A stretch of 64,000 nucleotides of DNA from Bernardetia sp. (GTDB taxonomy: Bacteria > Bacteroidota > Bacteroidia > Cytophagales > Bernardetiaceae). Of this stretch, positions 1,261-56,448 are shown piece after piece; within the stretch, counting starts at the first letter, position 1; every line of letters begins with the position of its first letter. The notes below the pieces were generated by a model, which was given only the letters and a program-made list of their open reading frames with translations, was not told the origin of the DNA and did not search any database. Location: assembly GCA_020630575.1 (NCBI GenBank), contig JAHDBD010000025.1, positions 1 through 64,000 on the forward strand, written 5' to 3'. The position numbers and the translations under genes are program-made.

Positions 1261-4200
1261 TTATAGGCGAATTCCTAAAAGCGTAATATCATCACGTTGA
1301 GGTGCTGTGCGTTGATGCTGCTCTAAAAGCTTTTCTAATTCTTGTTTTTGTTTTTCTGTGGGAAGATCTGCTATTTTTTCTAATTTTTCTATGATTACAT
1401 TTGAACCTACTTTTTGCCCTTGTAAATCAGACTGATCTGCAAAACCATCACTCATTAGATATACCATTGAGCCATTTTGTAGAATGATTGTTTGTTCTTT
1501 AAAATTACTATCTTGTCTTTTACTTCTTCGTCCACCAATTGACATTCTATCACCTTTAAGTTTAATTATCTGATGATTTTCTACATAAAACATAGATTGC
1601 TTTGCTCCTGCAAAAGTAATTTTATTTCCTGTTTCAGTCTTATCTAAACAAAAAATAGATATATCCATTCCATCATCATTCTTTGCTTTTTCTTGTTGAA
1701 GGGCAGCACGAACATCCTGATGTAATTTCTCTAGAATTTTAGCAGGAGAAAAAATACGTTCAATAGTAACAATTTCATTCAAAAGAGCATTTCCTATCAT
1801 AGACATGAATCCACCTGGAACACCGTGTCCTGTACAATCTACAATAGCTACAAATGTTTTGCCTTTATAATTTACTGTCCAGTAAAAATCACCACTTACA
1901 ATATCTTTAGGCTTGAAAATTACAAAATATTCATCAAAAAGCCTGTTCATTTCTTCTGGAGTAGGTAAAACAGCCTGTTGAATTGTAAGAGCATAACGAA
2001 TTGAATCAGTAATATTTCTGTTTTTTTCTTGAATAATTTCGTACGATTTAGCATTGCTTTGTGCAATAGAAATATAGGCTGCTAATGCTTCCAATATTAC
2101 AACATCTTCTTTTTTATAGGCATTTTTTCTAAATGACTGTACTGTAAGAACACCTACTGTTTTTTCATTGATAACTAAAGGAACATAAATAACAGATTTA
2201 GGCATTTTGCCTATATCCAAGTACTTTAACTGAGAGTTTTGAGCAAAATGTTCATCTATGTCATTTATCCAAATAGATTTTTTCTTAGTAAAACTTTGCA
2301 CTGAAAGACGATTAACCTGAGAAAGAGAATCACTATGAGCAGCAAGTAACTCTCCGTGTTCAATATAATTTTTAAACTCAATCTTATTTTCCTTTTTCTT
2401 ATAAATACCTATTCCAAAACCTTCTGCTGGCATGAGAGCCAAAATATTTTGATAAATGGTTTGTACAAGTGTATCAGTTTGAAGTTTTGCAGTAATTTTT
2501 TGTCCAATTTCTCCTACTTTGTGGATTTGCTGATAGGATTCTGTAATAGCTTGACGTTGCTCTTCAATTCTATCTCTTTGTGATTCAATTTCTTCTTTTT
2601 GTTGATTAATCTCTGCTGTACGCTGTTGAACTGTTTCCTCTAATTTTAAGTTCTGTCTTTTAATTCTTCCTATCTGATAGCGATAAGCTAAAAATACTAG
2701 AATTAAAAATACCAGAACTAAACCTACCCAAAAATAGGCTGTTTGATAGAAAAAGGGCTTTACCTTAAAATTTACAGTAGCTACTTCTTTACTCCAAATA
2801 CCATCATTGTTAGCCGCCATTACTTCAAAAGTGTATTCTTTTGGTAGCAATCCTGTATAGAGTGCATCTCTTTCGTTGATAACTTCTATCCAGTCTTCAT
2901 CAAATCCTTTCAAACGATATTTGAAGTGCATATCTGAAGGAGAAACAAGACTAAGTCCTGTAAAATGAAAGATAACCCGTTTTGCTCCTGCTTCTACAGT
3001 TATTTTTTCATTTTTTAGAGAAGGGAATGAATGATTAATACTATCTATTGCCATGTTTAGAATATAAACAGGAGGAGGAAGTAAATTTTCAGATATTTTG
3101 GTAGGATTAATCATAGAGAGACCTCCAATAGTAGGAAACCACATTCTTCCTTGACTATCTTTTAGAAAGTGTACAGCTCCTGTACATTCCTCTTCTTTCA
3201 TTCCATCACTTCTATCAAAAATTTCTGTTTTCAGGTCGGTTCTTTTTCCTTGAAAATAATCTGTAACTGAATTTCTATCTATCTTAATCACTCCAGAGGA
3301 AGACGCAAGCCATAAATCATTATTGCTATCTTCACGAATATCAAAAACGGCATCAACAGGAAAACCTGTAGATGGACTAAAAATGTTTATCTTATTTATA
3401 TTATTAGGTGAAATAGCAACTAGTCCAGAATTTGCACAAATCCAAAGAATTTTCCTAGAATCATAACGAGCTGAAAAGGCTAGATTAGAAGGTAATCCTT
3501 CTGTTTGTGTATAAATTTTACTGACTTTCCTTGTTTTGAGATTTATGATATTTACACCAGCATCATTGGTAGAAACGATTAGTTTTCCATCTTGAGTTGG
3601 TTCTATACCCATCACAAAATTAGAAGTTAATCCGTCATCTTTTGTAAAGGGAATCCATTTTTGTTCAGAGGCAGAGTATTCATCTAGTCCACCACCACGA
3701 GTTCCTATCCATATACTTCCATTTATAGTCTGAGTAATTACTCTAACTTGATTATCACTAAGACCATCTGCAGTAGTAAAAAGTTTTTCACTTCCATCAG
3801 AAGAAATTCGTAGCACTCCTGCATAAGAGCCTACCCAAATATTGCCTTCTCTATCTTTAAAAATGGCACGTAAACGGTCAATAGAAAGAGGTGTTTTGAA
3901 AGTATATGTTCCTATATTTTGATTATTTATAGTATTCATAATCCCTGCATCCGAACCAATCCAGTAGGTATCTTTTTCTACTTCTTGTATTGAACTAACT
4001 GAAACAGAAGCTAATCCCTGTTGAACTGTATAATTTACAAACTTTCCATCTTTTAAACGTATAAGTCCTGCTCTATACATTGCCAACCAAATATTTCCTT
4101 CTCTGTCTGTACTGACGTGCATTACATTATTGTGAGGAAGTCCATTTTCGGTATTCAAAACTTCATAGCGATTGGTTAGAGAATTTTTTCTGAATAAACC

Positions 4201-5121
4201 AGCACTTGTAGCAAACCAAATACTACCTTCTGCATCTTCTATAATATCATTAATTGTAATCCCTTCAAATTCTTTTATAACTTTGGATTTTCCATTTTGG
4301 ATACAGTTTACTCCATTTATTGTTCCTACCCAAAGTGTATTTGTTTTATCTAATAAAAGACCTGTAATTACATCATTTGAAAGTAAACCATTTTCTACAT
4401 TATATTTTTCTACAATTTCGTTTTGATAAGCAAATAAGCCTTTTCCTTCTGTTCCTATCCAAATTGTACTGTTAGCTCCACTTTCTCCATATTGAAGTTC
4501 ATTAACAGAAATAGAATTAATTTCGGGAATTTTGCTAAGAGTAGTAAAGACACCATCTTTATAAACGATTATGCCATTTCCTCGTGTACCTATCCATAGA
4601 GAACCATCTTTTATTTTTACAATAGATTCAATAGAATAGTCTGGAAAGTTACCCTGTGTAGTTTCAGAAGTATAAAAATTAAAATTATTGTCTTTTTGTA
4701 CAATTAATCCACTTCCATGTGTACCTATCCAAAGTGAATCATCTTGAGTTTGATAAAGTGATGAGATAGAACTATTAGTAAGATAAGGTAGATTTTTTTT
4801 ATCAAAAATTTTGAATTCTACTCCATCAAAACGTATTAAACCACTATATGTACTTGCCCAAATAAAACCATCTTTTGATTGGTATACGTAATTTAGAGTA
4901 TTGGTAGGAAGACCATTTCTAGTTGTCCATTGGTCAATTATATACTGCGAAATTTGTTTTTTAGGGTCTAAAGCAAAACCAAATGTTGAAGAGAGTGCAT
5001 AAAAAAGCAAACTTAAAAACAACGTAAGGGCAGTTGTTATTGAACTAGGTTTATAAAACCATTTAGGAAAATAAAATATGCAACTAAAAGAAATTTTTGG
5101 TATCACGTCAGAATTATTCAA
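1261..5121 (-). CDS. Propeller / Y_Y_Y / GAF / SpoIIE-type PP2C phosphatase sensor
   Basis: A 1286-residue membrane sensor. In order it has a long N-terminal leader with a hydrophobic segment (about 28-50) and roughly a dozen two-component-regulator propeller repeats of the form LWIGT..GL (about 55-690). A Y_Y_Y domain follows (about 720-795, containing FKYRLKGFDEDW), then a membrane helix (about 798-818), a Glu/Gln-rich coiled coil, a GAF domain (about 880-1020) and a C-terminal PP2C/SpoIIE phosphatase. The phosphatase keeps its acidic metal-binding motifs (VSGDFYW, DCTGHGVPGGFMS, DGMDIS, MSDGFADQ, RDDITLLG), so it should be active on Ser/Thr phosphoproteins. Propeller sensors normally end in a histidine kinase, so the phosphatase output is notable. 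It is the last gene of a probable three-gene minus-strand run, 57 bases after the small gene. Partner and ligand are unknown. The exact start is uncertain because the 25 residues before the hydrophobic segment are unusually long. Confidence 0.9.
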   Translation of the reverse strand: MNNSDVIPKISFSCIFYFPKWFYKPSSITTALTLFLSLLFYALSSTFGFALDPKKQISQYIIDQWTTRNGLPTNTLNYVYQSKDGFIWASTYSGLIRFDGVEFKIFDKKNLPYLTNSSISSLYQTQDDSLWIGTHGSGLIVQKDNNFNFYTSETTQGNFPDYSIESIVKIKDGSLWIGTRGNGIIVYKDGVFTTLSKIPEINSISVNELQYGESGANSTIWIGTEGKGLFAYQNEIVEKYNVENGLLSNDVITGLLLDKTNTLWVGTINGVNCIQNGKSKVIKEFEGITINDIIEDAEGSIWFATSAGLFRKNSLTNRYEVLNTENGLPHNNVMHVSTDREGNIWLAMYRAGLIRLKDGKFVNYTVQQGLASVSVSSIQEVEKDTYWIGSDAGIMNTINNQNIGTYTFKTPLSIDRLRAIFKDREGNIWVGSYAGVLRISSDGSEKLFTTADGLSDNQVRVITQTINGSIWIGTRGGGLDEYSASEQKWIPFTKDDGLTSNFVMGIEPTQDGKLIVSTNDAGVNIINLKTRKVSKIYTQTEGLPSNLAFSARYDSRKILWICANSGLVAISPNNINKINIFSPSTGFPVDAVFDIREDSNNDLWLASSSGVIKIDRNSVTDYFQGKRTDLKTEIFDRSDGMKEEECTGAVHFLKDSQGRMWFPTIGGLSMINPTKISENLLPPPVYILNMAIDSINHSFPSLKNEKITVEAGAKRVIFHFTGLSLVSPSDMHFKYRLKGFDEDWIEVINERDALYTGLLPKEYTFEVMAANNDGIWSKEVATVNFKVKPFFYQTAYFWVGLVLVFLILVFLAYRYQIGRIKRQNLKLEETVQQRTAEINQQKEEIESQRDRIEEQRQAITESYQQIHKVGEIGQKITAKLQTDTLVQTIYQNILALMPAEGFGIGIYKKKENKIEFKNYIEHGELLAAHSDSLSQVNRLSVQSFTKKKSIWINDIDEHFAQNSQLKYLDIGKMPKSVIYVPLVINEKTVGVLTVQSFRKNAYKKEDVVILEALAAYISIAQSNAKSYEIIQEKNRNITDSIRYALTIQQAVLPTPEEMNRLFDEYFVIFKPKDIVSGDFYWTVNYKGKTFVAIVDCTGHGVPGGFMSMIGNALLNEIVTIERIFSPAKILEKLHQDVRAALQQEKAKNDDGMDISIFCLDKTETGNKITFAGAKQSMFYVENHQIIKLKGDRMSIGGRRSKRQDSNFKEQTIILQNGSMVYLMSDGFADQSDLQGQKVGSNVIIEKLEKIADLPTEKQKQELEKLLEQHQRTAPQRDDITLLGIRL

Positions 5122-12134: not shown

Positions 12135-12178
12135 AGTATTTGGTACAGTTGCATTCACGCTAAAGCATAAGCTACAGT
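12126..12178 (-). repeat. Dispersed double-hairpin element, family E, copy 1
   Basis: Read on the minus strand, this segment matches 52373-52422 over about 50 bases with small gaps. Shared blocks are TGTAGC, GCTTTAGCGTG, ACTGTAC and ACTTTAGTGT. Each copy can form hairpins of the type (A)CGCTTTAGCG(T) and CACTTTAGTG. Here the element covers the stop codons of both convergent genes, cruF (12132-12134) and the acyltransferase gene (12172-12174). Confidence 0.65.
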
Positions 12179-13257
12179 TTTATTTGATATACAAAGTGAG
12201 AAAAAACTTTTGCGCCAAATTCTTCTTTCCATTTAAAAAGTCCTTCGTTGATTGAATTTTTTTCAGTATTGTTTCTCAATTCACTGACTCCCAAACTTAA
12301 ATATTCAAAACTTCCAGTAAGAGATGTTTTAATTATTTTATCAAAATGAATAACATGGTTTTCTATAAGATGATTAATCAAAAAATCTAATGCACAAATT
12401 TCTTTTCCCTTTTTTGTAGCCGACATATACTGTAAATGAATCGTAGATTGATAAACAAAAGAAACACTACAAGCTACAATCTCATTTTTTGAATTTTTTG
12501 CTAAAGAAAAAAGAATGTTATTAGGAAATTTATTTTTTAATAACTGAATTTCATCCACCGAATGAACAGGAAGAAGATTATGACGAGTTTTTAAATTGTC
12601 TTCTAAGATATTCCAAAAATCAGTTGCTAATTCTGTTTTTTCTACTCTTAAGTTAGATTGATAGGCTTTTTTGAGATTTCTTCTTTTTCTTGTGGAGTAA
12701 TTTTGATAGTTTATTTCTTGATAATCTACTTCACTCTTGGGCAAAGTAATTACAGAGTTTGCCTCCACTCTCAGAATTTTACTTTCAATCTCATTACTAT
12801 TAAAGTTATTATTCAAAATTCTGTGAATACTTTCATCTTTATCTATAAAAAAATAAGAAGGCAAAGGTTTTATAATTAAATCAGTAAATTCATTTTTTTT
12901 CAAAAACTCAACACAAGCAAAAACAATTTTTCTTTTTTCTAAAAAACTCAAATTCTCTTTAAAAATAAATCCTCCAAAGGTTAAGCCTTTATGAGAATAA
13001 AGAGTTTTTTGATTATTGTCGTTGGTGGGGACACCAACAATGGCAGGAGATTTTTTTGTAATTTCACAACAAGCTGGCAAAACACAAATCAAAGTATTCT
13101 TTTTGTCATAAATCATCAATGAAAAATCATCAAAACGTTCTCTGTGATAGAATAAATAATCTGTTTCAAAGAAGAAATGACCTTCTGAATTTGTTCTTAT
13201 AAATGAATTCCATTCTTTATTACTTTCTTTAAAATTAAATTTTTTGATAGAATACAT
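12172..13257 (-). CDS. FemAB-like GNAT-fold acyltransferase
   Basis: A 361-residue protein with two GNAT-like halves in the style of FemAB/CelD-like acyltransferases. It opens with KEWNSFIRTNSEGHFFFETDY, has an Arg/Lys-rich central YSTRKRRNLKKA typical of the hinge in this group, and a second half with LFSLAKNSKNEIVACSVSFVY and LQYMSATKKG. Such proteins transfer aminoacyl or acyl groups, often in cell-wall or surface polysaccharide metabolism; the acceptor here is unknown. Codons for AIVGVPTND (near residues 70-80) coincide with a 28-base palindromic element also found in a spacer at 50356, so this short segment may be of repeat origin. It is convergent with cruF. Confidence 0.72.
   Translation of the reverse strand: MYSIKKFNFKESNKEWNSFIRTNSEGHFFFETDYLFYHRERFDDFSLMIYDKKNTLICVLPACCEITKKSPAIVGVPTNDNNQKTLYSHKGLTFGGFIFKENLSFLEKRKIVFACVEFLKKNEFTDLIIKPLPSYFFIDKDESIHRILNNNFNSNEIESKILRVEANSVITLPKSEVDYQEINYQNYSTRKRRNLKKAYQSNLRVEKTELATDFWNILEDNLKTRHNLLPVHSVDEIQLLKNKFPNNILFSLAKNSKNEIVACSVSFVYQSTIHLQYMSATKKGKEICALDFLINHLIENHVIHFDKIIKTSLTGSFEYLSLGVSELRNNTEKNSINEGLFKWKEEFGAKVFSHFVYQIKL
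13018..13045. repeat. Palindromic element family A, inside a coding gene
   Basis: The sequence GTCGTTGGTG..ACACCAACAA.GGCA is identical at 25 of 28 positions to 50356-50383, which lies in the spacer upstream of hslV. It forms a hairpin with GTTGGTG/CACCAAC arms. Here it is read in frame on the minus strand as part of the acyltransferase. Confidence 0.7.
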
Positions 13258-33215: not shown

Positions 33216-35915
33216 TTAAACTGTAATTCCAATGATACAAATATCATCAATTTGTTTTTGTTCTGTTCCAATCCAATCCATCAAAGTCATCTTTAATGCT
33301 CTACGTTGGTGTAACATAGATGAAGTAGAAGTTTCATAGAGAAGGCTACGGAAGCGTTTTGACATAAATTTACGTCCCTCTTCTCCTCCAAATTGGTCTT
33401 GATAGCCATCAGAATACAAATAGAATGTTTCTACTTCCTCTAAATCAACGATATGATTTGTGTATTTTTTATCTTGTACCTTTTTATTTCTTCCTCCTAT
33501 CGAAACTGTATCTCCTTTAATGACTGTCATATTTGTTTCTTCTCCTCCTCGTTGTCTTTTCTTGTGCATATAGACGAGAGGGTTTTTTGCACCTGCAAAC
33601 TCTAAAATTTTTCTCTCGCTATCTATAACAGCAATAGAAATATCCATTCCATCTTTATTTCCTGTTGTTTTTTGCTTTAAAATATCTATGATTTCTCGTT
33701 GTAATGTATCTAAAATCTCACTTGGTTTAGTTATTTTATGGTGTTTTACAATTTCATTGAGAAGTGTAATTCCTAATAAAGACATAAATGCACCTGGAAC
33801 TCCATGTCCTGTACAGTCAGCTACAATAATAACCTTTCGATTATCTACTTCTGCATACCAAAAGAAATCTCCTGAGACAATATCTTTTGGAGTAAAAAAG
33901 ACAAACGAATCTTTAAAAATAGATTTCATTTCTCTAGTGCTTCCTAATAGTGCAAACTGAATTCGCTGTGCATAATTTACACTGGATACAAAATTATCAT
34001 TTTGTTGTTTTATCAGTCTTGATTTTTGTTCAATATTAAGCCTAAAGATTTCAGATTTAGTAATGTCTTGTAATGTACCTCGTTTTCCTATCAAGATGTC
34101 ATTTTCATCAAATGAAGGATAGGCTTTTTCTTTTATGTAAAGTGTCGCTCTTTTAGGAACATGTATTCTATATACTTCGCTAAACTTTCCTTTATTTGCG
34201 ATAGCTTCTTTCCATTTTTTTATGACTCTTTTTAAATCTTTGGGTTCTATCCAACTTCTAAACTCTTCCAAGGAATTAGGGAAATCTTTTTTATCAACTT
34301 GAAAAATACCTTCAAAACTTGCAGACCATTCTATTTCCTCAGATTCAATATTCATATCATAACTCACTATTTTTGCTAAAAGTTGAGATTCTTCTAGTCG
34401 TTCTTTGTTCTTTTCTACATTATCAAAAAGAATTTTTACTTTTTCATTTTGTACAATTTCTTGTGTAACATCTTGAGCTGTTCCTATCAGTAAATAAGGT
34501 TCTCCTTCATTATTGTAGTTAATCAAAGAAAAAGCACGGTAATGCTTCCAATCTTCTTTTTCAGATAAATGAGTTGGTCTTGCTCTATAATGCGTCAAGA
34601 GTTCTTTTTGGTTTCTTGTTGCAGCTTCTGCAAGAGCTAGTTGATTACTTTTGTAATCTTCAGGATGGACAATTTCTCTGAAAGTAGCTGAATTAAATTT
34701 CTGACCTTTTTCTAATCTATAAATAGATGGCAAATTATCTGAATGAGTAATGAGTTCTGTTTCTAAATCCCAAACAAAACTGCCCATTTTTGCCATTTTT
34801 TCAGCACGATTGAGCAAATCTTGTTTTTGTTCGATTTCGTCTTGAGCAGATAATAAATTATCGTTAATCGAACGCAATTCCTCTGCATTCATTCTTAACT
34901 CTTCTTGTGATGCTTCTAATCTTTCATTTTTTAATATTGATTTTGCATTGGCTTCTTCTACATCAAAAAAAGCTTGTTTTACTCTTTCTATCATTGGTTT
35001 TAAACCAAATACTGATAAAGCGATTACAAAAATCATGATAACTACCACAACTACAAACTGTACAATTTTCAAATTTGTAACCTTATCTTTTGCCTCTTGC
35101 TCATAATTATTAATAATAGATTGCATACGAGAAGAAAATTCTTCTTGATTTTTTTCTAATGTTCTTACTGTTTTGGCTTCGTGATTCTGAAGGCTTAAAG
35201 AATCTACATTTTCGATAGCAAAAATAGGATTTAAAAGCTCATCAATTCCTATAACTATATTTTCATAACTACTTGCCAAGGTATCAAAGGCATCATCAAT
35301 AGATTGAGAGTTTTGATGTTCTTTGCTAATTCCTAATGTAAAAGATTTTTGAGTGAGATTTTCATGTCCTTCTTTGAAATTTTTTAAGGCAATAAGTAAA
35401 GAATCTATGTGCCTTATTTTTTCCTTTTCTAGTGTAACAGGTATTCTACTTGAATGATACAGAATTTTCTGACTAAGTGTAGACTGATTGCTTCCTATTT
35501 TAATTAAATGTATATCATCTTGTTCTTTATAGGAAAAATCTTGAAGCAACAAAAAACCTGCAACTAATATCAATCCAATCAGGATAGGAAAGAAGGTGTT
35601 TGCAAGGCGCATTCGCTGTATAATTGCCTTATTTTTTGCATTATATTTTTCAATATTACTATGACGTAATTCACTATTTTCTTTTAGTCTATCTATATAA
35701 AAACCAATCGTCCCAAAAGCACCTCCCAAAACAAAAGGAGCAGAATCGATTACAAAATGGATAGGATTAATACGGTGAATCTGAACAACTGTTTCTAAAC
35801 TTAATGACATTTCATGAAAAAATAATCCATCAAGAATCCAAGAAAAGAAAGGAAAAAGAAGTCCAAATAAAAATCCTCCTAAAGTATAGCGTTGTGTGTT
35901 TGAAATAGGAGTCAT
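33216..35915 (-). CDS. PilJ-like / PAS / SpoIIE-type PP2C phosphatase (paralogue 1)
   Basis: An 899-residue membrane sensor phosphatase. Two N-terminal membrane helices (about 11-32 and 50-75), a third at about 106-125, and a long helical sensor region precede a fourth helix (about 288-312). The sensor begins IKIGSNQSTLSQKILYHSS, like the N-terminal nitrate/PilJ-type input domain. A coiled coil and two PAS domains follow (about 370-490 and 510-625, each ending in a GT..DIT/DVT motif). The C-terminal PP2C domain (about 680-899) retains SGDFFWY, VADCTGHGVPGAFMSLLG, DGMDISIAV, YLYSDGYQDQFGG and DDICIIG. It should dephosphorylate a Ser/Thr phosphoprotein. A close paralogue lies immediately upstream, so the pair is a tandem duplication. 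Confidence 0.92.
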   Translation of the reverse strand: MTPISNTQRYTLGGFLFGLLFPFFSWILDGLFFHEMSLSLETVVQIHRINPIHFVIDSAPFVLGGAFGTIGFYIDRLKENSELRHSNIEKYNAKNKAIIQRMRLANTFFPILIGLILVAGFLLLQDFSYKEQDDIHLIKIGSNQSTLSQKILYHSSRIPVTLEKEKIRHIDSLLIALKNFKEGHENLTQKSFTLGISKEHQNSQSIDDAFDTLASSYENIVIGIDELLNPIFAIENVDSLSLQNHEAKTVRTLEKNQEEFSSRMQSIINNYEQEAKDKVTNLKIVQFVVVVVIMIFVIALSVFGLKPMIERVKQAFFDVEEANAKSILKNERLEASQEELRMNAEELRSINDNLLSAQDEIEQKQDLLNRAEKMAKMGSFVWDLETELITHSDNLPSIYRLEKGQKFNSATFREIVHPEDYKSNQLALAEAATRNQKELLTHYRARPTHLSEKEDWKHYRAFSLINYNNEGEPYLLIGTAQDVTQEIVQNEKVKILFDNVEKNKERLEESQLLAKIVSYDMNIESEEIEWSASFEGIFQVDKKDFPNSLEEFRSWIEPKDLKRVIKKWKEAIANKGKFSEVYRIHVPKRATLYIKEKAYPSFDENDILIGKRGTLQDITKSEIFRLNIEQKSRLIKQQNDNFVSSVNYAQRIQFALLGSTREMKSIFKDSFVFFTPKDIVSGDFFWYAEVDNRKVIIVADCTGHGVPGAFMSLLGITLLNEIVKHHKITKPSEILDTLQREIIDILKQKTTGNKDGMDISIAVIDSERKILEFAGAKNPLVYMHKKRQRGGEETNMTVIKGDTVSIGGRNKKVQDKKYTNHIVDLEEVETFYLYSDGYQDQFGGEEGRKFMSKRFRSLLYETSTSSMLHQRRALKMTLMDWIGTEQKQIDDICIIGITV

Positions 35916-36162
35916 ACAAAGATTAAAAAAATAAACACTTAGAGCATTACTAACCCATAAAATAGAGTTATGTTTTAAATTACAAATCTAATTAATTTTT
36001 ATGAATTTATATTACTTGATACATATTTGTTTTCTAAGATTGAATTTGTTTAATAAATAGCTGTTTTACATAGAGTTGAGTTTCCAAGACTACTAGTTAG
36101 AATCAGTTTTAGTGTTAAACTTATGAGTACATCACATTGGATAAAATGTTTTTTTCTCTGCT

Positions 36163-36234
36163 CTGTCAGACATCTTTGAGGTGTCAAGACAGTTAGATAT
36201 ATGAATTGTCTGACACTTTAAAAGTGTGCTGACA
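36163..36234. repeat. Dispersed palindromes, family D and a companion hairpin
   Basis: Within the 341-base spacer between the two phosphatase genes, 36163-36192 (CTGTC..GACATC..TTTGAG..GTGTC..GACAG) closely matches 48533-48562. A second hairpin at 36207-36234 has arms TGTCTGACACTTT / AAAGTGTGCTGACA. The rest of the spacer holds no gene or clear promoter. Confidence 0.65.
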
Positions 36235-36256
36235 GATTCATGTCCAGCACTCTATG

Positions 36257-38875
36257 TTAAACTTTTATTCCGATTATACAAATATCATCAATTTGCTTTT
36301 GATGCCTTCCTATCCAATCTCTCAAGTTATTTTTTAATGCTCTACGTTGTTGAGACATAGAAGAGTTATAGGTATCATAAAGAAGGCTTCTAAATTGTTT
36401 GGACATAAATTTTCGTCCGTTCTCTCCCCCAAATTGATCTTGATAACCATCAGAATACAAATAAAATGCTTCTACCTCATCTAAATCAATAGTATGGTTG
36501 GTATATGTATTTGATTCTACTTTTTTACTTCTTCCTCCTATAGACACTGGGTCTGCTTTGATAACCGTCATATTAGATTTTTCGTCTCCTTCTTTTCGTT
36601 CTTTATGTATATAAACAAGAGGATTTTTTGCTCCAGCAAATTCTAATGTCCCTTTTTCCTTATCAACAACAGCAACAGAGACATCCATTCCATCTCTATT
36701 CTTAGTTGTTTTTTGTTTTAATATATCTGTAATCTGTATTTGTAATCCTTCTAAAATAAGACTTGGAGTAGTTATTTTACGATATTCGACAATTTCATTC
36801 AAAACCATTGTTCCTAATAAAGACATAAAAGCACCTGGTACGCCATGCCCTGTACAGTCAGCTACTACAACAATTTTACGATTTTCTACTTCTGCATACC
36901 AATAAAAATCTCCTGAAACGATGTCTTTGGGTACAAAAAAGATGAAAGAGTCTTTAAAAATATTCTGTATTTCGTTCGTTCCTCCAAGTAAAGCAGACTG
37001 AATACGTTGAGCATAATTAACACTTGATACAAAGTTGTCATGCTGATTTTTAATTTGCTTTGATTTCTGTTCAATATTAATTCTAGCTATTTCAGACTTA
37101 GTAACATCTTGTAGTGTTCCACGCTGCCCTATCAAATTTCCCTCTTTATCAAAAGAAGGATACCCTTTTTCTTTTATGTAAAGTACATGGTTGGAAGGAG
37201 TATTTATTTTATATATTTCATTAAATTTATTTTTTGATTCTACCACTTCTGCCCATTTATTAGTTACTCTCACCAAGTCTTGAGGGTTTATCCATTTTCT
37301 AAAATCAGCTAGAGAACTAGGAGTGTCCTGTTTGTCTATATAAAAAATATTTGCAAAGCTATCTGACCAATTTATACTTTTGGATAGTATATCTATATCA
37401 TAGCTTGCTATTTTGGCTAGTTGTTGTGCTTCTTCCAAATGCTCTTTATTTTTTTCAGCATTCTCAAAAAGGGATTTTACTCTCTGATTTTGCTTTATTT
37501 CTTCAGTAATATCTTGAACTGTACCGACAACTTGATGAGCTTCATCCTTATCATCATAGTTAATCATAATAAAAGCACGATAATGTTTCCACTCTACCAT
37601 ATCAGCAAGATAGGCAGGTCTTGCTCTATATTCTGTAAAAAACTCTTTTGTATGTGTAGATATAGCTTCAGAAAGTTGATTTTGACTGACCACAAAATCA
37701 TCAGGAGCTACATTTTCTTTAAAGACATTCGGAGTAATTACATTTCCTTCTTCTAATCTGTATATATAAGGTAAATTATCTGAATGTTGGATTGTTTTTT
37801 CCTTCAAATCCCAAATAAAACTACCCATTTTTGCCATTTTTTCGGCTTGGGAAAGTAAATTTTGTTTTTGTTCTATTTGCTCTTGGGTGGCTAATAAGTT
37901 TTCATTTTTCTCTAAAAATTTAGCATTAGCTTCTTCAACATCAAAGAAGGCTTGTTTTACTCTATCTATAGTTGGTTTGAGTACAAAAACAGCTAAACTA
38001 GATATAAATAAAATAATCACTACTACTAAGGCAAACTGTATGGTTTTAAAATTTTCGTTTTTATTATCTACTCTTTTTTCATAGTTAGTAATAATAGATT
38101 TCATAAGAATGGAAAACTCCTCTTGATTTTTTTCTACTTGCTTTATTGTTTTTGTAGTATTATTTGTAAGTTTTAAAGAATCAGGGTTTTTGATTGGAAA
38201 CGGAATCAAAAGTTTATTGCCATTTGTAATTACATTTTGATAGCTTCTTTTTAAGGAATCAAATAAATTTTGATTTTTTTGATTTGCTCCTACTAGTTCA
38301 AATTGTTGTATGAAATTTTGGTGTCCTTCTTTCAAATCTTTTATTGCAAGACGTAGAGAATTGGTATGTTTTGTTTTTTCATCAGCTTCCGTAATGGGAA
38401 TTTTAATAGCATTGTAGAGGATATTTTGACTAATTATACGCTGATTATTTCCAATTTTAATTAAATAGAGGGCATTTTGCTCTTTACTTGAAAAGTTTTG
38501 TAATAACAAAAAGGATGTTATCAGCATTGTAGAAATTAGGATAGGAAAAATGCTATTTGCAATTCGCATTCTTCTTATAATAGCTTTGTTGTCTTTATTG
38601 TATTTATCAATATTGGTATGATGCAACAAACTATTTTCTTTCAATCTATCAATATAAAAACCAATTGTACCAAAGGAACTTGCTAAAATCAAAGGAACAG
38701 AATCTATGACAAAATGTATAGGATTATTTATATGAAGACGAACCACCATGTTCCAACCTAAAGTCATTCCATTAAAAAATAACCCATCTAAAATCCAAGA
38801 AAAAAAAGGAAAGAGAAGTCCAAATAAAAAACCTCCAAGTATATAACCCTTTGTGTTTGAGATGCTATTCTTCAA
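36257..38875 (-). CDS. PilJ-like / PAS / SpoIIE-type PP2C phosphatase (paralogue 2)
   Basis: An 872-residue paralogue of the next gene downstream, with the same order of membrane helices, PilJ-like sensor (IKIGNNQRIISQNILYNA), coiled coil, two PAS domains and PP2C domain. The phosphatase motifs SGDFYWY, VADCTGHGVPGAFMSLLG, DGMDVSVAV, YLYSDGYQDQFGG and DDICIIG are all intact. The N-terminal FGLLFPFFSWILDGLFF segment is almost the same in both proteins, while the periplasmic sensor region diverges strongly. That pattern fits duplication followed by ligand specialisation. The 341-base spacer between the two genes carries dispersed palindromes, so they are probably not one simple operon. Confidence 0.92.
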   Translation of the reverse strand: MKNSISNTKGYILGGFLFGLLFPFFSWILDGLFFNGMTLGWNMVVRLHINNPIHFVIDSVPLILASSFGTIGFYIDRLKENSLLHHTNIDKYNKDNKAIIRRMRIANSIFPILISTMLITSFLLLQNFSSKEQNALYLIKIGNNQRIISQNILYNAIKIPITEADEKTKHTNSLRLAIKDLKEGHQNFIQQFELVGANQKNQNLFDSLKRSYQNVITNGNKLLIPFPIKNPDSLKLTNNTTKTIKQVEKNQEEFSILMKSIITNYEKRVDNKNENFKTIQFALVVVIILFISSLAVFVLKPTIDRVKQAFFDVEEANAKFLEKNENLLATQEQIEQKQNLLSQAEKMAKMGSFIWDLKEKTIQHSDNLPYIYRLEEGNVITPNVFKENVAPDDFVVSQNQLSEAISTHTKEFFTEYRARPAYLADMVEWKHYRAFIMINYDDKDEAHQVVGTVQDITEEIKQNQRVKSLFENAEKNKEHLEEAQQLAKIASYDIDILSKSINWSDSFANIFYIDKQDTPSSLADFRKWINPQDLVRVTNKWAEVVESKNKFNEIYKINTPSNHVLYIKEKGYPSFDKEGNLIGQRGTLQDVTKSEIARINIEQKSKQIKNQHDNFVSSVNYAQRIQSALLGGTNEIQNIFKDSFIFFVPKDIVSGDFYWYAEVENRKIVVVADCTGHGVPGAFMSLLGTMVLNEIVEYRKITTPSLILEGLQIQITDILKQKTTKNRDGMDVSVAVVDKEKGTLEFAGAKNPLVYIHKERKEGDEKSNMTVIKADPVSIGGRSKKVESNTYTNHTIDLDEVEAFYLYSDGYQDQFGGENGRKFMSKQFRSLLYDTYNSSMSQQRRALKNNLRDWIGRHQKQIDDICIIGIKV

Positions 38876-46183: not shown

Positions 46184-46218
46184 TAAAGCAGTGCATTTTT
46201 AATTGCATTGCTTTTATT
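46184..46218 (+). terminator. Terminator after paralogue 2
   Basis: AAAGCAGTGCA and TGCATTGCTTTT arms around TTTTTAAT, then T-rich sequence. The same hairpin occurs after paralogue 3. Confidence 0.7.
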
Positions 46219-46278
46219 TTAATTAAAATGTGCTCATTTTTTATAATTATATTTTTTTACCTTTTATTATTTACAAAT

Positions 46279-46725: not shown

Positions 46726-46753
46726 AACTTTGTTTTTTGATTTTTTTCTAAAA

Positions 46754-46790
46754 AGCAGTGCATTTTTAATTAAATTGCACTGTTTTTTTG
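46754..46790 (+). terminator. Terminator after paralogue 3
   Basis: CAGTGCATTT and AAATTGCACTG arms followed by TTTTTTT. Shares GCAGTGCATTTTTAATT with the terminator at 46184. Confidence 0.8.
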
Positions 46791-46862
46791 TCGATTTTTG
46801 TCAGTTTTTGTCAAACTATTTCATTTTTTTATTAAAAGCATTCAAAACAAAGTAGCCCAAAA

Positions 46863-49775: not shown

Positions 49776-49799
49776 ATTCGTAATTGAACATTCGTAATT
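49776..49799. repeat. Heptad array, ATTCGTA type
   Basis: Units ATTCGTA, ATTGAAC, ATTCGTA, ATT run directly into the hslV stop at 49798. The unit is the complement of the GAATTAC type. Confidence 0.55.
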
Positions 49800-50340
49800 A
49801 TTTTTCAAGAACTTCAATCATAAAGTTATGATTTGTATAGATACAAATATCAGCAGCGATTGTTAAGGCTTCTTTTACCATTTCTTCGGCTGTTAAATGT
49901 GGTGCATGGCGTTTGAGAGCAAGAGCAGCCGATTTTGCATACATACTTCCCGAACCAATTGATTCTACATTTTCATCTGGCTCAAGAACATCACCCGAAC
50001 CTGAAATATTTAATATTCCGTCTTTATTAACTACAATCATCATGGCTTCTAACTTGCGAAGATAACGATCTGTACGCCAGTCTTTTGCTAGTTCTATGGC
50101 AGAGCGTTTTACATTTCCACCATATCCATTTAATTTTTCTTCGAATCGCTCTAAAAGTGTAAAGGCATCAGCTGTTGAGCCTGCAAAACCTGTTATTACT
50201 TTTCCGTCTGCAATCTTACGAATTTTTTTGACAGTAGATTTGGCTACTGTATTTCCCATTGTTGCTTGTCCGTCTGCTCCAATGGCGATTTGTCCGTTAT
50301 GAGAAACGGCAAGAACAGTTGTTGATTTTATTTTTTGCAT
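49798..50340 (-). CDS. hslV: ATP-dependent protease subunit HslV
   Basis: A 180-residue proteasome-like peptidase. After a short propeptide (MQKIKS) the mature N-terminal nucleophile is Thr7 in STTVLAVSHNGQIAIGADGQATMGN. Other family marks are GFAGSTADAFTLLERFE, AKDWRTDRYLRKLEAMM, SGSGDVLEP, IGSGSMYAKSAALAL and the C-terminal DICIYTNHNFMIEVLE. HslV forms a double-hexamer protease with the HslU ATPase and degrades damaged and regulatory proteins in the cytoplasm. HslU is not in this neighbourhood. A family A palindrome lies 15 bases upstream of the start codon. Confidence 0.95.
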   Translation of the reverse strand: MQKIKSTTVLAVSHNGQIAIGADGQATMGNTVAKSTVKKIRKIADGKVITGFAGSTADAFTLLERFEEKLNGYGGNVKRSAIELAKDWRTDRYLRKLEAMMIVVNKDGILNISGSGDVLEPDENVESIGSGSMYAKSAALALKRHAPHLTAEEMVKEALTIAADICIYTNHNFMIEVLEK

Positions 50341-50355: not shown

Positions 50356-50383
50356 GTCGTTGGTGAGTACACCAACAACGGCA
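50356..50383. repeat. Palindromic element family A, intergenic copy
   Basis: GTCGTTGGTGAGTACACCAA..GGCA forms a GTTGGTG/CACCAAC hairpin. It differs from the copy inside the acyltransferase gene (13018-13045) at only 3 of 28 positions. It sits in the 5' region of hslV. Confidence 0.7.
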
Positions 50384-53570: not shown

Positions 53571-54803
53571 ATGATATACATTCATATTCCATTCTGCAAA
53601 CAAGCCTGTCATTATTGCGATTTTCATTTTAGTACAAATCTCAAGCAAAAACAGGCTTTTTTATATGCCTTAGATAAAGAAATCGAATTGCAAAAAGATT
53701 TTTTTAAAGAAGCCGTTTTTCCTTCGTCGTTGTCAGTGTCTCCACCGACAATAAAACCACTAAAAACTATTTATTTCGGTGGTGGAACGCCTTCTATTTT
53801 AGAAATTTCAGAATTAAAAGCAATTTTAGAAAAAGTAAAATCTACTTTTGAAGTTGATAAAGATGCAGAAATTACACTGGAAGCAAATCCTGATGACCTT
53901 ACTTCTTTAGAATTTTTGAAATCATTAAAGGAAATTGGCTTTAACCGTTTGAGTATTGGTATTCAATCTTTTGAAGAATCTTTTTTGAAGTTTATGAATA
54001 GGGCGCACAATGCCGAAGAGGCTAAAAATTGTGTCAAATTAGCCCAAAAAGCAGGTTTTGAGAATATTAGTGTAGATTTGATTTATGGTATTCAATTACC
54101 GAAAAAAGAAATTGAATTCAATGCATTTGAAAATAATTTTGAAAAACAAAGTGATGATTTAAAATCAAATCCTCATTATTTTTGGAGGAAAGATTTAGAG
54201 TTTGCGCTTTCTTTGAGTGTTCCTCATATTTCTGCGTACTGCTTGACTATCGAACCCAAAACGCCTTTTGGAAACAGTCTGAAAAAAGGAAAACTAAAAC
54301 CAATTGATGAAGAGTTTGCAGCACAGCAGTTTGAAATTCTGACCGAAACATTGAAAGAAAACGGTTATATTCATTACGAAATTTCCAATTTTGCAAAACC
54401 CAATCAGTTTTCAAAACATAATACAGCCTATTGGAAAGATGAACCTTATTTGGGTTTGGGAGCTTCGGCACATTCTTACGATGGAAAAAATCGTTTTATG
54501 AATGCTGCTAATAATAGAAAATACACTGAAAGTTTGAATAAAAATAGCTTACCTCAAATCATTGACGAGCTTTCAGAAAACGACCGAATAAATGAATATT
54601 TCTTGACTTCTTTGCGAACAATTTGGGGAATTGATTTGAATCATTTAATCAAAAAATATAATTACAATCTTTTAGAAAATCAATCAAAAACTGTTTCAAA
54701 ATTAGTTGAAAATCAAATGGTTGAATTAAAGAATGATACTGTTACTCTTACAGAGAAAGGAAAATTATTTGCTGATGGAATTGCTTCAGATTTGTTTGTG
54801 TAA
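53571..54803 (+). CDS. hemW: Heme chaperone HemW (radical SAM)
   Basis: A 410-residue radical SAM protein taking ATG 53571; a TTG at 53529 would add fourteen residues. The [4Fe-4S] motif CKQACHYCDF near residue 8-17 is the HemW form CxxxCxYCxF. TIYFGGGTPSIL, EANPDDLT, NRLSIGIQSF and GLGASAHSYDG are further family marks. HemW binds heme and was once annotated as oxygen-independent coproporphyrinogen oxidase, but it lacks the extra Cys of HemN. An insertion at about residues 49-65 (VFPSSLSVSPPTIKP) lies over a family A palindrome, so part of the chain may come from a repeat element. Confidence 0.92.
   Translation: MIYIHIPFCKQACHYCDFHFSTNLKQKQAFLYALDKEIELQKDFFKEAVFPSSLSVSPPTIKPLKTIYFGGGTPSILEISELKAILEKVKSTFEVDKDAEITLEANPDDLTSLEFLKSLKEIGFNRLSIGIQSFEESFLKFMNRAHNAEEAKNCVKLAQKAGFENISVDLIYGIQLPKKEIEFNAFENNFEKQSDDLKSNPHYFWRKDLEFALSLSVPHISAYCLTIEPKTPFGNSLKKGKLKPIDEEFAAQQFEILTETLKENGYIHYEISNFAKPNQFSKHNTAYWKDEPYLGLGASAHSYDGKNRFMNAANNRKYTESLNKNSLPQIIDELSENDRINEYFLTSLRTIWGIDLNHLIKKYNYNLLENQSKTVSKLVENQMVELKNDTVTLTEKGKLFADGIASDLFV
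53724..53752. repeat. Degenerate palindrome family A inside hemW
   Basis: The reverse complement ATTGTCG..GTGGAGACACTGACAA aligns with 13015-13040 (ATTGTCGTTGGTGGGGACAC) with one 3-base gap and several mismatches. It corresponds to a HemW loop that looks like an insertion. Confidence 0.45.
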
Positions 54804-56393: not shown

Positions 56394-56448
56394 AACTGAT
56401 AACTGATAACTGATAACTGATAACTGATAACTGATAACTGATAACTGA
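56394..56448. repeat. Heptad array, AACTGAT type
   Basis: Seven perfect AACTGAT units and a six-base partial unit end only five bases before the TTG start proposed for the TamB gene. This is the longest perfect tandem array in the window. Confidence 0.9.

Follow-up and report, generated by a model that had tools for sequence, protein, structure and literature searches.

A 27-nt palindromic repeat in a FemAB-like gene of Bernardetia: a probable REP/RPE-type element of Bacteroidota

Introduction

How does the same palindromic repeat come to lie both in a spacer and, in frame, inside a protein gene? The question is raised by a 64,000-nt stretch of Bernardetia sp. DNA (assembly GCA_020630575.1, contig JAHDBD010000025.1, positions 1 to 64,000), referred to here as the window. 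An initial annotation, made from the letters of this stretch, described a 28-base hairpin shared between a FemAB-like gene and a spacer and likened it to the Rickettsia palindromic elements (RPEs). Rickettsia and some Proteobacteria provide the best-known cases of protein-invading short palindromes. The repeat described below is a different sequence that invades proteins in Bacteroidota, and close genomes show its gain, its opposite orientation and its in-frame decay. We conclude that the copy at 13018 is probably a dispersed, non-autonomous palindrome of the REP/RPE type that was inserted in a variable loop of the FemAB-like protein.

Results

Copies of the repeat in the window

The two 28-mers, at 13018-13045 and 50356-50383, agree at 25 of 28 positions, as had been claimed, and the differences are two loop bases and one T/C position. 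Dinucleotide-preserving shuffles gave 0 matches versus the three seen, one of which is the 50356 palindrome read in reverse. The first copy (core GCCATTGTTGGTGTCCCCACCAACGAC, 13018..13044, minus strand) has the polarity GCC...GAC and lies within a 361-aa minus-strand ORF (12172..13257), where it forms residues 72-80 and is indeed translated as AIVGVPTND. It occupies nine codons and, like RPE-like insertions, leaves the reading frame intact. The naming of this ORF as a FemAB-like GNAT acyltransferase holds at the domain level, where NCBIfam TIGR03019 matches all 11 FemAB-like orthologues (best 2.3e-10) and Pfam Acetyltransf_6 matches 6 of the 11; the family match is weak and the TIGR03019 scores are far under the curated cut-off. 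Rfam gave no matches for the gene region.

The second copy (GCCGTTGTTGGTGTACTCACCAACGAC, 50356..50382, minus strand) lies outside genes, as the initial annotation held, but the spacer is not a neutral one: the copy lies 15 nt before the start codon of an hslV-like gene (180 aa, 49798..50340, minus strand), and its orientation is sense. A third, diverged copy (GTCGTTGTCAGTGTCTCCACCGACAAT, 53726..53752, plus strand) is again in frame, in another phase and read as SLSVSPPT, within the ORF of a HemW/HemN-like radical SAM protein (53571..54803, plus strand, start MIYIHIPFCKQACHYC). This diverged copy is common to the window's genome (G000) and a second genome of the same species (G003). The names ThrA, SerC, TauE, HslV and HemW are given to these genes by sequence likeness; for HemW there is a radical-SAM match besides.

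Other repeats are present in the window. Seven tandem copies of TAACTGA occupy 56400-56448, and arrays of at least two copies occur seven times in 1.6 Mb of G003; the heptamer is named in the title of an article (PMC4679880) on direct repeats that abound between genes in marine Beggiatoaceae. Two adjacent long minus-strand ORFs at 33216-38875 repeat one another, with 70-79% likeness in several stretches, and the ORF at 1261-5121 has shorter stretches in common with both. Finally, 70-nt direct repeats that are 70% alike (AAAGCAGTGCATTTTTAATT...) flank a small ORF at 46185-46254 and 46752-46821.

The repeat is an asymmetric hairpin with sharp ends

In full, the repeat reads GCCGTTGTTGGTGTCYYCACCAACGAC, an asymmetric hairpin of 27 nt. 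Aligned copies are conserved over positions 0-26, from GCC to GAC, and on both sides give way sharply to AT-rich background. Ten base pairs make up the stem, including a T.G pair that is nearly constant; the loops are mostly TCCC, TCCT or TCTC, and the stability of the sense-strand hairpin is -14.6 kcal/mol. A paired change in the stem from T-A to C-G was found in 27 of 181 copies (Fisher p=4e-17), a test that counts related copies and copies picked by their likeness to the consensus, so that it supports the hairpin without being a clean test of it. With a looser search we identified sub-families that have 3-nt loops and other stems (CTCG/CGAG, CTTG/CAAG, TTTG/CAAA) and in which the ends are kept. 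The asymmetry between G-T and A-C changes in the stem, which bears on the strand whose RNA matters, is weak.

The core 18 nt of the element form a near-perfect palindrome, as would suit a binding site in DNA for a nucleoid protein or a dimeric regulator, a site multiplied by point mutation and selection rather than by copying. We consider such a site very improbable, given that the 27 conserved positions are asymmetric and include the unpaired GCC and the near-constant T.G pair, that the stem changes are compensatory and alter the site (TTGG/CCAA, TCGG/CCGA, CTCG/CGAG), and that the repeat is gained block-wise inside genes.

Copy number and distribution

Genome-wide, the repeat proved more abundant than the initial annotation had seen. 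At up to three mismatches, GCCGTTGTTGGTGNNNNCACCAACGAC has 77 copies in G000 (5.3 Mb in 94 contigs, 84.5% complete) and its reversed control has none. Six other genomes labelled as the same genus, one of them of the same species, hold 13-88 copies each, and the counts in other genera are 29 (g2), 2 (g3) and 0 (g4). A scan of 84,980 species genomes, from which records near the window were possibly excluded, located the exact motif in Bacteroidota only; the carriers are Flexibacter, Rufibacter, Sabulibacter, Ferruginibacter, one Chitinophagaceae genome and one Cytophagales genome, and the Flexibacter records match loci of G002. At up to two mismatches, the element is present in 6 of 395 genomes of a phylum-wide sample, the window's own included and one by a single weak match. 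A literature search with pieces of the motif found no description of this repeat, the titles returned looking unrelated, and this element family of Bacteroidota is apparently undescribed.

Two further observations concern individual genomes. The copies of G001, another species, may show a bias by replication strand, as judged by eye. In the genus f5 g28, the element forms REPIN-like inverted doublets about 40 nt apart (genomes G389 and G224; loci L303, L308, L309, L320 and L324), with GCCCTTGTTGGTG...CAACAAG followed by about 40 nt that often start with CCGCCATGCAT, and then by GTTGTTGGTG...CAACAACGGC.

Gain, inversion and decay inside genes

Among the FemAB-like orthologues, those of G000, G003 and G005 have both the repeat and its residues. 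The orthologues of G002, G006 and four genomes of other genera have neither the repeat nor AIVGVPTND (G002 reads ...LPACFE-GEKILHSH... at this site), and in no orthologue do the residues occur without the repeat. The same loop holds an inverted copy in G004, which may be an independent insertion or an inversion, and a decayed remnant in G001. A tree of four proteins places G005 with G000/G003, so that the sense copy would most simply reflect one insertion in the ancestor of G005 and G000/G003. This comparison, the check suggested in the initial annotation, supports the insertion that had been proposed for this gene.

Could AIVGVPTND instead be an ancient functional loop of the acyltransferase that matches the repeat by convergence or chance? 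The length of the loop is variable in all relatives, a point in favour of this reading; the variability is read from the alignment because the single-sequence structure model of the protein was unusable (pLDDT 34). With no chance matches expected, with orthologues that do not have the residues, and with the same peptide recurring in unrelated proteins at non-homologous places, we find an ancient loop scarcely credible.

Similar differences were found in other genes. The ThrA-like gene has no element in G004, one unit in G001, G002 and G005, and in G000/G003 a further partial unit, of exactly 27 nt. In the SerC-like gene the element is absent from G006, present as one unit in G005 and reduced to in-frame remnants in G001 and G004; two units are also seen among the species, and G005 and G002 differ by exactly 27 nt, in an ambiguous alignment. 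The TauE-like gene has the element in G000/G003 only. The consensus contains no stop codon in any of the six frames and is read as AVVGVPTND in sense and as VVGGDTNNG in antisense. The FemAB-like gene has probably kept the element because it amounts to nine stop-free codons that specify a small polar linker. In a hand count of sites no fewer than 15 codons from an ORF edge, one codon phase accounts for 13 of 19 gene-internal insertions (p=0.002 versus one third); the count is limited to intact ORFs, so that gene-breaking insertions go unseen. The sharp-ended block, its gain in orthologues and the doublets indicate a palindrome that is, or once was, mobile.

Turnover within the species

To the extent that sites in G000 and G003 are comparable, 14 of 21 are shared, and at the others the element is absent or replaced. 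A clean empty site with a target duplication was seen at none of the 21 compared sites, and at several G003 sites other sequence of similar length stands in place of the element. In the leader of locus L033, G000 has the element (C64, near 100080) and G003 (C1, near 2518000) has a different hairpin, CCTCCTTCGGAGGGG... (CCTCCTTCGGAGGGGCTGGGGGAGG), at about the same distance from the same gene, as if the two hairpins had been exchanged. Shared copies diverge between the two genomes by 9.8% in the element versus 7.5% in the flanks, giving no sign of extra constraint on the element within the species.

Intergenic copies are polarized at gene edges

According to simple ORF calls, 62 copies in G000 are intergenic and 13 intragenic. 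Within 25 nt of an ORF edge we found the GAC end of 40 of the 62 intergenic copies and the GCC end of two; random placement in the same spacers gave 10.4 expected and a maximum of 23 in 5000 runs. The same polarity was found in G001 (28 versus 4; random 9.7) and in the small set of G002 (10 versus 0), and is not significant in a subset of G003 (8 versus 4); some sites are orthologous across G000, G001, G002 and G003, and the sets are therefore not fully independent. In the distant carriers examined (Rufibacter, f5 g28 and f48 genomes) the polarity was not seen. Sense copies in leaders (n=45) peak at 14-17 nt before the ATG. The spacer between element and ATG is nearly free of G (8 G in 742 nt), and a promoter-like TAnnTTTG lies upstream of 18 of the 45 copies, versus 5.9 in shuffles. 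Copies in antisense, an orientation nearly absent from leaders, lie mostly 6-15 nt past the stop codon of the neighbouring gene.

The narrow spacing before the ATG, the nearly G-free spacer and the upstream promoter motifs all favour reading the repeat as a cis-regulatory RNA hairpin, chiefly of leaders and trailers, which would adjust translation or the stability of the mRNA and may have a protein partner, the gene-internal copies being accidents. So does the position of the antisense copies, since 6-15 nt past a stop is the range in which E. coli REPs reportedly stall ribosomes (PMC12306157). The hslV leader can be argued both ways. The element is found at the same place in G005 and G002, and the copies in G000, G005 and G002 have kept their arms though loop and flanks differ, but G006, G003 and G004 have no copy there. 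Further against regulation, the neighbouring genes have no apparent function in common, and the shared copies diverge within the species as their flanks do. We regard a primarily regulatory hairpin as conceivable but doubtful.

The polarity could also arise if insertion, or retention, were itself guided by gene edges through mRNA, ribosome position or an R-loop, and this we think unlikely. Such guidance would place the element with its GAC end directed towards the ORF, sense copies about 14-17 nt before starts and antisense copies 6-15 nt after stops. We know of no such gene-edge targeting rule for REP or RPE elements, and gene-edge polarity is, to our knowledge, no property of ssDNA transposition. 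We tentatively attribute the polarity to selection on the RNA.

Discussion

If the repeat is a dispersed REP/RPE-type palindrome, as we favour, it would have spread in the form of a single-stranded DNA hairpin, with an enzyme acting in trans, most likely of the Y1/HUH transposase kind, making the copies. Selection would then keep mainly those copies whose RNA hairpin falls just beyond the reach of the ribosome at start or stop, or that lie in protein loops; a stable RNA hairpin may be tolerated only outside the ribosome footprint at these points. On this view the element would for the most part be a passenger that is tolerated, and it might locally affect the translation of its neighbour. Closeness of REPs to stops is already known (PMC3733652, PMC12306157), and in the REP literature consulted we found no description of the leader spacing and the gene-edge polarity. 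The polarity is one feature that deserves dedicated study. It opens to testing the long-standing question of whether insertion bias or selection on their RNA determines where REP-like hairpins lie.

How does the element compare with known systems? In the general sense of a palindromic unit of 14-40 nt that recurs in many copies, it is a REP, with its 27 nt, 77 copies and mainly intergenic location. REP elements, whether of the GTAG and CGTC super-families or in BIMEs and REPINs, are likewise hairpins of 20-40 nt in tens to hundreds of copies, and they too have an unpaired tail, G.T pairs within the stem, a location near the 3' ends of genes, inverted doublets and an in-frame minority inside ORFs. 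The element falls outside the GTAG super-family, its ends being GCC- and -GACA with no GTAG/GTGG tag. CGTC REPs, as described by Di Nocera et al. 2013 (PMC3733652), have a CGTC (or TGTC/CCTC) tag, a stem starting with AT and a CCA-like tail; about 74% of the copies of our element have TGTC as the outer end, but their stem starts with GT and the tail is AACGGC. The same article places REPs between same-direction genes near the 3' end of the first gene, with a variable distance to the ORF that follows, whereas our element in such spacers hugs the downstream start codon at about 14-17 nt.

IS200/IS605-type transposases and RAYTs are candidate mobilisers of short hairpins, and Y1 genes are present in these genomes. 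Nunvar et al. 2010 (PMC2817692) describe RAYT genes as having two inverted REPs at their flanks in every case; in contrast to such a RAYT-mobilised REP (REPtron), no Y1 gene examined is flanked by an inverted pair of the element. None of the nine Y1 loci of G000 (84.5% complete) has a copy within 1.5 kb or up to the contig end. Across the family, single copies lie near 2 of the 35 Y1 loci examined and none is flanked; the relatives have about 28 further Y1 genes.

The likeness to Rickettsia elements that had been suggested at the outset applies to the manner of insertion and does not extend to membership. RPEs are about 150 bp long (PMC10969869), and RPE-4 and RPE-6 are counted as CGTC REPs in PMC3733652. 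Compared with the RPE range of roughly 100-150 nt in Rickettsia, our element has 27 nt, was found as the exact motif in Bacteroidota records only and lies mostly outside genes; the separation is drawn on length, host and location. What the two have in common is a palindrome that lies in frame in unrelated protein genes and is read as peptide, with intergenic copies as well, and in our element this in-frame insertion is seen in FemAB-, ThrA-, SerC- and TauE-like genes that have element-free orthologues.
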